From an uncultured Lachnospiraceae bacterium (GTDB taxonomy: Bacteria; Bacillota; Clostridia; Lachnospirales; Lachnospiraceae): a DNA stretch of 64,000 bases. Shown piece by piece: positions 29,234 to 33,106 of the stretch; positions within the stretch are counted from its first letter, which is position 1, and each line of letters opens with the position of its first letter. A program made the translations under genes and the position numbers. Below the pieces are notes generated by a model. It was not told the origin of the DNA. It was given only the letters and a program-made list of their open reading frames with translations, and made no database searches. The DNA lies in the NCBI GenBank assembly GCA_947644545.1, contig CANRZW010000004.1:94281-158280 (forward strand), written 5' to 3'.

Positions 29234-30460
29234 ATGAAAGGAAATATTGTTGTTGGTCAGTCTGGCGGCCCTACAGCCGTAATCAATTCTTCCGTAGCAG
29301 GTGTATATGCTGCAGCCAAGAAGCTGGGTGTGAAGAAGATCTATGGTATGGTTCACGGCATTGAGGGATTTCTGGAAGATAAGATGATCGATCTGGGTGA
29401 GTACCTGAATGATGAGACCGGTATCGAATTGTTAAAGAGAACTCCGTCCGCATTCCTGGGCTCCTGCCGTTTTAAGATGCCCAAGATCGAGGGACATGAA
29501 GATGTATATGAGAAGGTATTCGAGATCATGGAGAAGCATGACATCGAGTGTCTGTTCTATGCAGGTGGTAATGATTCCATGGATACGGTTAAGATGCTGT
29601 CTGATTATGCGGCAGCACACAATAAGCCGCAGAGATTCATGGGCGTTCCGAAGACCATCGATAACGATCTGCCGGTGACGGATCACTGCCCGGGTTATGG
29701 TTCCGCTGCGAAGTATATCGCAACTTCCGTGAAAGAGATCATTCGTGACAATGAGTCTTTCGGTGCGAAGAAACCTACCGTGTGTATCGTGGAGATCATG
29801 GGACGTAACGCAGGATGGCTGACTGCAGCAGCAGCTCTGGCGAAGGGTGATGACTGCCAGGGATGTGATGCGATCTACCTTCCGGAGAGAGTATTTGATA
29901 TCGATCAGTTTGTTGCCGACGTGAAAGAGCTGGCAGCTAAGAAGTCTTCCGTTGTAATCGCAGTGTCCGAGGGCGTTAAGGTTGCAGACGGCAGATATGT
30001 GTGCGAGATCGGCAGAGAAGTTGCAGTAGATGCATTTGGACACAAGCAGATGTCCGGTACAGCGGTTATGCTGGCAGATAAGATTGCTGCAGAGACAGGT
30101 CTTAAGACCCGTGCCATTGAGTTCTCTACATTGCAGAGAGCGGCTACCCATCTGGCATCCCTGACGGATATCAACGAGGCATTCCAGGTAGGCCATGACG
30201 CGGTTGTGGCAGCAGAGGAAGGCAAGACAGGCATGATGATCACACTGGACAGAAACGGTGATGATCCTTACCAGTGCGGCACAAGCGCATATGATATCCA
30301 TGCAATCGCTAACGTAGAGAGAAACGTTCCCGATGAGTGGATCACAGCAGACGGCAAAGGCCTGACAGAAGGTTATGAGAAGTATGCAAGACCGCTGATC
30401 ATGGGTGAACTGCAGCCTCTGTTCGTGAATGGTCTGCCGAGACATCTGGTACGCAAATAG
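29234..30460 (+). CDS. pfp: 6-phosphofructokinase, pyrophosphate-dependent type
   Basis: 408 residues. Motifs: GQSGGPTAVINSS at the N-terminus, GGNDSMDT (about 103-110) and PKTIDNDLPVTDHCPGYGSA (about 139-158). ATP enzymes have GGDGS and PGTIDND; Asp in place of the first Gly of GS and Lys in PKTIDND are the residues linked to PPi use. Hence it most likely makes fructose 1,6-bisphosphate from PPi, a reversible step that saves ATP. Strong codon bias and a good promoter suggest high expression. PPi use is inferred from the motifs. Confidence 0.9.
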   Translation: MKGNIVVGQSGGPTAVINSSVAGVYAAAKKLGVKKIYGMVHGIEGFLEDKMIDLGEYLNDETGIELLKRTPSAFLGSCRFKMPKIEGHEDVYEKVFEIMEKHDIECLFYAGGNDSMDTVKMLSDYAAAHNKPQRFMGVPKTIDNDLPVTDHCPGYGSAAKYIATSVKEIIRDNESFGAKKPTVCIVEIMGRNAGWLTAAAALAKGDDCQGCDAIYLPERVFDIDQFVADVKELAAKKSSVVIAVSEGVKVADGRYVCEIGREVAVDAFGHKQMSGTAVMLADKIAAETGLKTRAIEFSTLQRAATHLASLTDINEAFQVGHDAVVAAEEGKTGMMITLDRNGDDPYQCGTSAYDIHAIANVERNVPDEWITADGKGLTEGYEKYARPLIMGELQPLFVNGLPRHLVRK

Positions 30461-30497
30461 TCGGCGGGCGACGAAGAAAAAGAGATAGAGAATCAGG

Positions 30498-30538
30498 AAC
30501 CGGAATTACTGGGATGACACAGTGGTTCCGGTTTTTTT
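30498..30538 (+). terminator. Intrinsic terminator of pfp
   Basis: AACCGGAA (30498-30505) pairs perfectly with TTCCGGTT (30526-30533), with further inner pairing TACTG/CAGTG, followed by TTTTT. Confidence 0.88.
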
Positions 30539-30637
30539 CATCGGCGTAAACGGGATTTGTTATGACTGGTGGTGGAGCAGCCGGCAGGTATAAAAAGATT
30601 TTATCGGGACATTTTATTAGATAAATGCATACAAAAA

Positions 30638-30664
30638 TGCAACACTTGTATAAAAAGTGTTGCA
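30638..30664 (+). repeat. Left inverted repeat / recombinase core site
   Basis: Arms TGCAACACTT and AAGTGTTGCA form a perfect palindrome around the spacer GTATAAA. The match to the right copy extends two further bases inward (to 30666). Confidence 0.85.
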
Positions 30665-30819
30665 TTACTGACTTACATAATATATATCGGACTCATGCCA
30701 CAATAGTTTAGAGTATATTTTAAAATTGTGCCAAAAACTTTTTCTATGGTAAAATTCTGCTTTATTTCGGATATTGCGAGTTCGTGGAACGAATCCGGCA
30801 AACGAGCCTGCCCGTTTGC

Positions 30820-31401
30820 TCAAAGCTGTACGCTTAAGTATACCATATCCTTGTCCTCCTGTTCGATGCACAGATATTGTTTGGTAACACGGTAAGAGGA
30901 ATGGTTGTACAGTTCCATCAGAAGGGCCGGCTGTACGCCTTGTTTCCAGGCGTGGTATCCGAAGGTCTTGCGAAGGGAGTGGCAGCTGATGTGCTCTTCA
31001 AGGCCTGCATATTCGGCAGCTTCTTTAATGATGCGGAAAGCCTGGGAGCGGGAGAGGTGGTCTTCCGATTTCCTGCCGTTTGGGAACAGATATTGCTGTT
31101 TCGTTGCATACATTTCTTTTTCACGCAGAACATACAGTACGTCTGCTACGCAGTGATTGACTGCTACGCTGCGTTCCTTGCCGGTCTTCTGTTCTTTGAT
31201 ACTGATATGATCCTTGAAACAATTTCCTTTTTCATTAAAAACATCCCGCCACTGTAAACTTAACAGATCGCTGATCCTGAATGCGGTATTCAGTCCCAGG
31301 ATGATCATCGCATAATTGCGGCAGACGGGTTTTATCGACAGGTAATACTCTTTGAATTTTTTCAGCTTTTCTTCGCTTTTAATAGGGTATGTTGTACTCA
31401 T
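30820..31401 (-). CDS. FimB-type tyrosine recombinase
   Basis: 193 residues, nearly a bare catalytic domain like FimB/FimE (about 200). All catalytic positions are visible: Arg42 (TAFRISDLL), Lys72 (EQKTGKE), His141 and Arg144 (CHSLRK), His167 (LYNHSS) and nucleophile Tyr176 (TKQYL). Phage and conjugative-element integrases are about twice as long with an arm-binding domain, which is missing here. GAGAGGAG precedes the ATG. The gene lies wholly between the 27-bp inverted repeats; its upstream region abuts the right repeat, so its own promoter may overlap that site. Confidence 0.88.
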   Translation of the reverse strand: MSTTYPIKSEEKLKKFKEYYLSIKPVCRNYAMIILGLNTAFRISDLLSLQWRDVFNEKGNCFKDHISIKEQKTGKERSVAVNHCVADVLYVLREKEMYATKQQYLFPNGRKSEDHLSRSQAFRIIKEAAEYAGLEEHISCHSLRKTFGYHAWKQGVQPALLMELYNHSSYRVTKQYLCIEQEDKDMVYLSVQL

Positions 31402-31466
31402 GATGATTCTCCTCTCTGTTGGGTGATGTCCTCAGGTCTCCATTACTATACAATACCTGATTGCAA

Positions 31467-31493
31467 TGCAACACTTTTTATACAACTGTTGCA
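31467..31493 (-). repeat. Right inverted repeat / recombinase core site
   Basis: Arms TGCAACACTT and AACTGTTGCA around TTTATAC. One base (C at 31486) departs from the perfect palindrome seen in the left copy. Confidence 0.85.
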
Positions 31494-31589
31494 TCGGAAG
31501 AAGGATCCGGCAGAGATAAGCTTTTGCAGGATGGGGTCCGCAGGCCGGTGCGGAATAAGAGGATCGTGGGAGTATACGGGAGGTATGAT

Positions 31590-31868
31590 ATGTTAAGATT
31601 GACAGTGAGTACGGAAGAATACCTGATGATCGGTGATGACATCAAGATTGTTTTTCTGGGTGGCAGCAAGAATCATACCCGTGTGATGCTGGATATTCCG
31701 AGGGATATCAACGTGGTTCGCAGCAAAGTGATCGAAGCAGGCGTGGAAGGTGCGGAGGATCCGGAAAAGCTCTCCCACTATTATGCGGAACCGGAACTTG
31801 CGGAGAAATACAGAAAGAAAAAGAACGGCAGCAGGAAGCCTGCCGGTAATCAGGTGAAGGCTGTATAG
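31590..31868 (+). CDS. csrA: CsrA-like RNA-binding regulator, divergent
   Basis: 92 residues. The first 50 follow CsrA: MLRLTVSTEEYLMIGDDIKI, then RVMLDIPRDINVVRSKVIE, which keeps Leu4, the IGDDI turn and the C-terminal Arg of the RNA-binding pair. The usual Arg6 (LTRK) is Val here, so binding may be altered. A basic tail of about 40 residues is extra. CsrA in Bacillus represses flagellin translation, and this gene sits immediately before flagellin; no fliW is in the window. GGGAGG upstream sets the start. The frame stays open back to 31461 through the inverted repeat, but without family similarity. Confidence 0.8.
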   Translation: MLRLTVSTEEYLMIGDDIKIVFLGGSKNHTRVMLDIPRDINVVRSKVIEAGVEGAEDPEKLSHYYAEPELAEKYRKKKNGSRKPAGNQVKAV

Positions 31869-31901
31869 AAAGCACAGCTCGTCAAATAATCCGGATAATA
31901 G

Positions 31902-31933
31902 CTCGGAACTATCCTGGGGGTTTCGAGTTTATT
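31902..31933 (+). terminator. Weak terminator-like hairpin after csrA
   Basis: CTCGGAA (31902-31908) pairs with TTTCGAG (31921-31927, one G-U) and is followed by TTTATT. It may separate csrA from flagellin or let a fraction of polymerases through. Confidence 0.5.
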
Positions 31934-31941
31934 ATAAAAAG

Positions 31942-32037
31942 GATCTGTACGGCAAGGACAGGAATTGTACAGATCAAAAAATAAAATATGGAAAAGAACG
32001 GCCGCAAAGGGAATTGCGGCTGGTAAACACAAGGAGG
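31942..32037 (+). promoter_or_regulatory. Flagellin leader with candidate CsrA sites
   Basis: GATCTGTAC/GTACAGATC (31942-31950/31967-31975) forms a perfect 9-bp stem whose 16-base loop contains two AGGA motifs. A second stem, GCCGCA/TGCGGC (32001-32006/32015-32020), displays AAGGGAAT. The flagellin ribosome binding site AAGGAGG (32031-32037) is a further GGA. GGA in a hairpin loop plus a GGA at the Shine-Dalgarno is the layout of the CsrA sites in the B. subtilis hag leader. Binding here is inferred. Confidence 0.6.
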
Positions 32038-32043
32038 TAAATT

Positions 32044-33078
32044 ATGGTAGTACAACACAACATTACGGCAATGAACTCTAACAGAATGCTTGGTCTTACG
32101 ACAAGCGCACAGGCTAAGTCCACAGAGAAGTTATCTTCCGGTTACAAGATCAACCGCGCGGCAGACGATGCGGCAGGCTTATCCATATCCGAGAAGATGA
32201 GAAGACAGATCAGAGGACTGACACAGGCATCCGCTAACGCTCAGGACGGTATCTCCTGCGTACAGACAGCAGAAGGCGCGCTGAATGAAGTACAGGATAT
32301 GCTGCAGAGAATGAACGAGCTGGCAGTAAAGGGAGAGAACGGCACCCTGACATCTGTAGACCGCAGCTATATCCAGGCTGAGGTGAAGCAGCTGATGAGC
32401 GAGATCGACCGTGTGCAGAGCACGACCACATTCAATGAGCAGAAGCTGTTGGATGGCTCCTTCTCCAACAAGGGTCTTCAGGTTGGTGCGGAATCCGGTC
32501 AGCATATTGCTGTCAGCATCAAGAACATGAATACCAATGAGTTGATCGGTAATGCGATCGTGAAGGGAACGAAGTTCGGTACGAACCATGTGGAAAAAGA
32601 CGGAACGGATTTGGCTCTTAAGTATAAGGAGAGCATAGTAGACAAGGCAGATAATGAGTTAAAGGCTGATATGCTGGCGAAGTTCTACACATTTAACAAA
32701 GCAAATGCGGTAGATACATCGATCAAGAATGGCACAAGTGCGAATCTTAACACGACTACTGTGGCCAACAATACCTTAAAGGATGAGCCTACCGCGGCAG
32801 ACTTCGCGGCATTGAATGCATTTGCCAAGAGCGCGATCCAGGATGTATCCAAACAGCGTTCCGATCTTGGTGCGATCCAGAACAGACTTGAGCATACGAT
32901 CAGCAACCTGGATAACATTGTGGAGAACACCACTTCTGCAGAGTCTCAGATCCGTGATACGGATATCGCAACGGAGATGGTAAGATATGCGAACAACAAT
33001 ATCTTACAGCAGGCAGGTACATCCATGCTGTCCCAGGCGAACCAGAGCAACCAGCTGGCATTGTCCTTGCTTGGCTGA
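32044..33078 (+). CDS. fliC: Flagellin
   Basis: 344 residues. The conserved N-terminal D0/D1 (MVVQHNITAMNSNRMLGLTT, KLSSGYKINRAADDAAGLSI) and C-terminal D1/D0 (RDTDIATEMVRYANNNILQQ, ending ALSLLG) surround a short variable region, about residues 145-245. It is the filament subunit exported by the flagellar type III system. Strong AAGGAGG. It is followed by a terminator, so a single-gene transcript unless csrA reads through. The central surface domain is small, as in B. subtilis Hag. Confidence 0.96.
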   Translation: MVVQHNITAMNSNRMLGLTTSAQAKSTEKLSSGYKINRAADDAAGLSISEKMRRQIRGLTQASANAQDGISCVQTAEGALNEVQDMLQRMNELAVKGENGTLTSVDRSYIQAEVKQLMSEIDRVQSTTTFNEQKLLDGSFSNKGLQVGAESGQHIAVSIKNMNTNELIGNAIVKGTKFGTNHVEKDGTDLALKYKESIVDKADNELKADMLAKFYTFNKANAVDTSIKNGTSANLNTTTVANNTLKDEPTAADFAALNAFAKSAIQDVSKQRSDLGAIQNRLEHTISNLDNIVENTTSAESQIRDTDIATEMVRYANNNILQQAGTSMLSQANQSNQLALSLLG

Positions 33079-33106
33079 TAAGTTTTAGACAGTTATCTTT
33101 TTTTCA

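Follow-up and report, generated by a model that had tools for sequence, protein, structure and literature searches.

The window analysed here, a 64,000-nt stretch of DNA from an uncultured Lachnospiraceae bacterium, contains at one locus an 858-bp segment (both recombination sites counted) that is very probably a phase-variation switch, whose flipping would connect a predicted sigma-28 promoter to, or disconnect it from, a csrA-family gene and a flagellin gene. The segment carries its own recombinase, which would act on the two sites that bound it, with strand exchange within their 7-bp cores; csrA and flagellin would be transcribed from the promoter of the unit only in the ON orientation, and only with an active flagellar sigma factor, and their shared transcript would also yield the CsrA-family protein, which would bind leader hairpins with GGA in the loop and thereby tune flagellin translation. 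A sequence-only reading of this DNA had proposed a self-contained inverton enclosing its own recombinase, a claim that gains support from the identity of the site cores, an outward promoter box, and the occurrence of both orientations among relatives.

The two recombination sites, neither assigned to a strand, are near-palindromes of 11+7+11 nt. The left site (30637-30665, 29 bp) has perfect 11-bp arms around a core at 30648-30654 that reads GTATAAA on the forward strand; the right site (31466-31494, 29 bp) has one arm mismatch and a core at 31477-31483, and is inverted relative to the left one. Taken as 30-nt arms, 30637-30666 and 31465-31494 are 97% complementary, and on sequence grounds a chance origin of such a pair flanking a recombinase gene is far outside expectation. 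The sites had been described before as 27-bp inverted repeats; they are real, inverted and built around a 7-bp core, but the arms measure 11 bp rather than 10 and the sites 29 bp. A pattern scan of the genome (83 contigs, 95% complete) that allowed up to 3 mismatches found these 2 places only and no third site, and a reversed control pattern gave 0 matches in the same scan. The arrangement has the features expected of an inverton, in that inverted sites with an identical core flank a predicted promoter.

Between the sites lies a reverse-strand gene (30820-31401) for a 193-residue protein that matches PF00589 (8.2e-26; 91.2 bits against a cut-off of 27.1) and is thus a tyrosine recombinase, with XerC-like proteins, XerA and XerH as its relatives in the PDB. 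The claim that its catalytic set is complete held up: R-K-H-R-H-Y are all present, and in the alignment of 111 recombinases R42, K72, H141, R144 and H167 are identical in 111/111 and Y176 in 109. The label 'FimB-like' fared less well. E. coli FimB and FimE are tyrosine recombinases of ~200 aa that invert a promoter, with fimB and fimE themselves outside the invertible piece; the window protein shares their type and small size but scores far below the cut-offs of the NCBIfam invertase models (NF007371, 46.7 bits vs 222; NF007370, 35.1 vs 221). The genome holds one close copy of the recombinase, the next match being 26% identical, and viral contigs yielded 10 relatives at 30-39% identity.

A predicted sigma-28 promoter (TAAA-N16-CCGATA; 30685-30710, reverse strand) sits between the recombinase stop and the left site and points outward. 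It looks like the flagellar sigma-28 class, fitting the consensus cited for Butyrivibrio (TAAA, N16-17, MCGATAa) in the available text of PMC3720852. Because this promoter exits through the left site, away from csrA, the window would under this reading show the OFF state. Read leftward, the left site (30636-30666) forms a hairpin followed by a T-rich stretch with a terminator-like score (4 such structures found vs 1.4 in shuffles), which might halt the outward transcript in the OFF state. With coordinates mirrored about both cores, a flip would move the promoter to about 31421-31446 on the forward strand, 143 nt before the csrA start; the earlier expectation that a promoter would face csrA-flagellin once inverted is in this way borne out, by coordinates, for the sigma-28 box. 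The promoter then named, TTGGCA-N18-TAAACT, is present, but it belongs to a set of 4 sigma-70-like matches, against 2.9 in shuffled sequence, and it overlaps the sigma-28 pair in the same stretch, its second hexamer being the sigma-28 -35 box. On those numbers, the idea that the decisive element is a sigma-70 promoter was rejected.

Two others of these 4 matches, both inside the unit on the forward strand (30728-30755 and 31196-31223), face csrA as the unit now lies; they do not rise above chance level and, if used, would give the opposite phase. The second of them bears on the possibility that csrA-flagellin uses another promoter and that the sigma-28 promoter of the unit serves something else, an antisense transcript for example: it faces csrA now, and consensus scans may miss such promoters. 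We nevertheless think this very improbable, given the near-chance number of sigma-70-like matches, the lack of any on the forward strand between the right site and flagellin, and the promoter pattern among relatives. In the 66 related units with both genes, a CCGATA facing the genes occurs 0/66 times between site and csrA and 0/66 times between csrA and flagellin, so that the unit seems, from these motif counts, to hold the sole flagellar promoter of these operons. Conversely, a CCGATA lying within 62 nt inside a site and directed outward was found in 72 of the 74 units that have a site pair, against 0/74 directed inward at either end. The outward motif is on the 3' side of the recombinase in 69/74, on its 5' side in 3/74 (L105, L106, L110) and on neither in 2/74. 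CCGATA alone was counted because many units without a strict TAAA box have a TTAAG-like sequence there with the same CCGATA; site pairs for this count were picked with a bonus for matching cores, and the other 38 of the 112 loci, lacking such a pair, were left out. The three loci with the other layout, an outward promoter 5' of the recombinase, form one clade that includes both ON and OFF members.

These relatives were drawn from genomes of the genus (40 of 77 with a match at E <= 1e-30, own genome included), from genome contigs (best 80 of 148) and from four members of the same order, reading up to 4 kb, 6 kb and 1.5 kb of flank, respectively. Removal of near-copies reduced 139 loci to 112 (window included), or to 110 for the core comparison described below. 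Among the 112 dereplicated loci, csrA lies within 1.2 kb of the recombinase in 92, flagellin in 87 and either of them in 94, while 74 have a site pair under the applied cut and 38 do not. Judged from these neighbourhoods, the same module adjoins flagellin genes in dozens of related genomes.

Another regularity concerns the cores. When left and right sites were chosen independently, with no bonus for matching cores and with 29-nt sites only, the 7-nt cores were identical as inverted repeats in 49 of 51 dereplicated loci and as direct repeats in 0/51, whereas random re-pairing of cores, drawn 5000 times, matched 2.5 loci on average and never more than 9. One of the two exceptions (L178) is a mis-picked right site, since the site given by the inverted-repeat search, where the locus appears as L050, agrees in its core; the two cores of the other (L166) disagree at 1 nt. 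A first version of the comparison gave agreement in 38/40 loci, with 28 distinct cores in that set of 40, and the loci with 28-nt sites, left out of the 51, agree at positions 12-17 in 14/14 cases. Arm positions 8 and 9 agree less within loci (28/51 and 29/51). Cores thus vary between species yet match within a locus, as strand exchange by a tyrosine recombinase demands, and this combination of matching and change needs continuing recombination, or selection for it. That switches sharing a genome differ in their cores might be taken to prove insulation, but we set this aside: 0/11 pairs are identical, which says little at a background identity of 2.9%.

Orientation was scored by the direction of the promoter relative to csrA or flagellin. 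Of the units that have both a site pair and a box, 72 in all, 68 are OFF and 4 are ON; in the 111-row protein set, for which units without paired sites were also scored, the figures are 72 OFF and 5 ON of 77, and a FastTree tree, many of whose forks are weak, requires five changes of orientation. Comparison of L105 with L106 aligns the unit at 78% identity in one direction and the csrA side at 81% in the other, and the same flip of unit against csrA-flagellin side separates L065 from L057/L064, L056 from L086, and L068 from L081/L082. All of the observed flips are between species, in aligned pieces that are 66-88% identical, so they are also compatible with rare evolutionary inversions. The excess of OFF units could reflect rare flipping, or few ON cells in the assembled samples. 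It also lends some weight to the view that the switch of this lineage is stuck, or almost stuck, in OFF, with its parts intact, flipping lost or very rare and the flagellin effectively silent, as does the state of the units that share the window's position beside pfp, 7/8 of which are OFF while the eighth (L164) has neither sites nor promoter box. At one further locus (L195, the same locus as L077 and L015) the recombinase is split in two pieces with the sites intact. Switches such as L195, with an interrupted recombinase, and L164 would be locked. We regard a locked state as unlikely for the window itself: its recombinase frame and catalytic residues are undamaged, as are the matching cores and the promoter boxes, and the continuing recombination, or selection for it, that matched cores imply counts against locking.

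The position beside pfp also shows how the module comes and goes. We inspected the best 30 of 66 genomes' pfp loci, with neighbours within 1.5 kb: 7 have unit and csrA after pfp, 7 have a lacI-type gene directly after pfp, and 16 have neither. In five of the seven empty sites, alignment to the window ends near the end of pfp (short scraps aside) and resumes at 33098-33100, just past flagellin, so that a block of approximately 30461-33097 (forward strand), comprising unit, csrA and flagellin, is either found whole or missing entirely between pfp and the lacI-type gene. Because the three were gained or lost together there, the repeats bound no transposon. A recombinase between inverted repeats does resemble a small transposable element that landed by chance before csrA-flagellin, and the genus genomes G021, G006, G043 and G057 have three matches each. 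We consider such an element extremely improbable: this genome has one copy and one site pair, a csrA neighbour in 92 of 112 loci is not random insertion, an outward promoter box accompanies 72 of 74 units, and the seven empty pfp-lacI sites are without csrA and flagellin too, which is not the pattern of an insertion sequence. The many-copy transposable element that had been named beforehand as the outcome that would overturn the inverton was looked for and not found in this genome, and with a single copy, a single site pair and a whole module that comes and goes, the transposon was rejected.

The first gene of the predicted switched operon (31590-31868, forward strand, start corrected to 31590) encodes a 92-residue CsrA-family protein (PF02599, 6.6e-15). 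It scores 55.2 bits against the Pfam cut-off of 27 and 34.2 against the cut-off of 73 of the NCBIfam CsrA equivalog, and on these scores is a divergent paralogue; a stronger csrA match lies elsewhere in the same genome, beside fliW, and there is a third CsrA-family gene at G000:C8:4056-4193 (L210). Residue R44 is invariant in 88/88 distinct csrA neighbours, and we take it to be the RNA-binding R44 of E. coli CsrA. The predicted switched flagellin follows at 32044-33078 (forward strand; 344 aa; PF00669 2.8e-41, PF00700 6.4e-26).

The leader between these two genes is strongly structured as a whole (folding z -4.43). On the forward strand it contains a long hairpin (31895-31935) with similar ones in many relatives' flagellin leaders, a hairpin with AAGGA and CAGGA in its loop (31942-31975) that is a possible CsrA site, and a hairpin with GGA in its loop just before the flagellin ribosome-binding site (32001-32020) that is a predicted one. 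An Rfam search of 30400-32400 returned one sub-threshold match only, and none for the long hairpin. Among 86 distinct leaders, restricted to those in which both csrA and a flagellin start were found, 65 have a GGA-loop hairpin, against 10 of 1720 shuffles. In 46 distinct hairpins whose loop has four bases, several stem pairs vary in both partners, pair 6 for example being C-G in 28, G-C in 9, A-T in 3 and T-A in 3, a result to be read in light of the fact that the hairpin search itself required pairing of the first six pairs. GGA in a hairpin loop is a known CsrA target, and given such hairpins in the leader the CsrA paralogue likely binds the flagellin leader of its own operon.

The genome has 10 Flagellin_N matches, the weakest of which is perhaps an FlgL. 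Phase control of motility, as suggested at the outset, is accordingly too broad: a switch linked to flagellin stands, but it concerns one flagellin among several rather than the whole of motility. In six other flagellin leaders of the genome, GGA-loop hairpins are present in C20b (stem score 7.5) and C20c (8), weaker in C21 (6) and C34 (5.5), and absent from C20a and C9. By analogy with FljA, the CsrA paralogue may repress the genome's other flagellins.

Some relatives carry more than one csrA-flagellin cassette. Four of 6 loci with at least two csrA cassettes (L057, L064, L065, L086) have a site with the same core before each csrA, in one orientation throughout; in the remaining two (L059, L092) no same-core site before each csrA was found. 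From OFF, the site on the promoter side could recombine with any such site and dock the promoter at that cassette, so that the arrangement could act as a flagellin selector in which the same promoter serves a single cassette at any moment. Confidence is lower for this part, since several sites in L057, L064 and L065 match only 10-12 of 16 positions of the half-site consensus. At a further locus (L079:5300-7400) two divergent flagellin genes flank the unit, csrA was not found, and a third same-core site is at 422, near another flagellin; a flip there would choose between the two flagellins. The same-core sites of the four multi-cassette loci, being direct, and the presence or absence of the whole module at pfp-lacI would also suit a recombinase that serves mainly for gain, loss or exchange of flagellin cassettes, with inversion as a by-product. 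We find this quite unlikely, because a single inverted pair is all that the window and most loci read contain and because an outward promoter beside a site has a plain role in inversion only. A broader form of the phase-variation switch, which we hold about evenly balanced between true and false, would be a self-inverting sigma-28 cartridge, widespread in gut Lachnospiraceae as a tyrosine-type counterpart of Hin, that moves with its CsrA paralogue and flagellin and docks its single promoter at any cassette with the same core, giving an exclusive choice of flagellin, while switches with other cores in one and the same cell stay apart.

In Salmonella, the hin gene is itself part of the invertible DNA, and the operon that is switched pairs a flagellin gene with a gene whose product regulates flagellin post-transcriptionally. 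According to the available part of PMC3798978, the segment of Hin/hix (fljBA) spans ~1 kb between two 26-bp sites, its inversion switches a promoter and hence the flagellin made, and Hin itself, a serine recombinase, works with an enhancer that Fis binds. The window resembles it in having a segment of about 1 kb between inverted sites whose inversion would switch a flagellin promoter, with recombinase and predicted outward flagellin promoter both inside. It differs from Hin in its tyrosine rather than serine recombinase, its 7-bp cores, its predicted sigma-28 promoter and its CsrA-family partner. The two are convergent, not homologous, and of the known systems compared here Hin is the nearest in design.

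The C. difficile flagellar switch (Cdi4, RecV) shares with the window a tyrosine recombinase, inverted repeats, flagellar genes and a place in the Clostridia (PMC5386303, in part). There, the early flgB operon has in its leader, on the downstream side of the operon's own promoter, a 154-bp segment between 21-bp repeats, and RecV, working in trans, serves more than a single switch; here, an 858-bp unit bears the predicted promoter and its own recombinase. Likeness extends to clostridial invertons linked to tyrosine-type recombinases (inverton group 139 / invertase group 35, in the available text of PMC11892184) and to an 844-bp invertible segment that encloses a recombinase (PMC5903667, likewise in part). 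Invertible promoters or leaders run by tyrosine recombinases, and a recombinase-enclosing invertible segment, are thus already known from the available portions of PMC5386303 and PMC5903667. The strings 'flagell', 'lachno' and 'roseburia' occur 0 times in PMC11892184; in PMC5903667 'eubacterium', 'roseburia', 'lachno' and 'csra' occur 0 times and 'flagell' 20 times, with 12 of 34 text places covered, which concern Salmonella, E. coli and C. difficile. A search of open-licence PMC full text found no description of a flagellin switch of this kind.

Lachnospiraceae flagellins are prominent among the gut flagellins that draw antibodies. Host antibody responses to gut flagellins are, going by their titles, the subject of PMC11285207 and PMC11580831. 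If the phase-variation switch is real, a unit whose recombinase occurs in 40 of 77 genus genomes and which is mostly OFF in the assemblies scored (72 to 5) would offer a simple genetic reason for flagellin genes that are present but silent in many cells, and the ratio of ON to OFF would be countable at known junctions in existing metagenomic reads, so that hosts could be compared. Translation may add another level of control to this transcript, as the CsrA paralogue and the hairpins of the leader suggest.

Not every member of the recombinase family has this setting. In the alignment, 18 of 111 recombinases are not near csrA or flagellin, and ten of these (L058, L062, L074, L018, L201-L203, L205-L207) are also without a site pair and may act in trans or have another role; L058 adjoins what by eye appears to be an ATP synthase beta gene. 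Four other loci (L075, L083, L085, L092) have enlarged units with an extra long ORF between the recombinase and the far site; those of L085 and L092 match no Pfam family, that of L075 weakly matches Yae1_N, and that of L083 matches Transposase_31 (PF04754, 2.4e-27).
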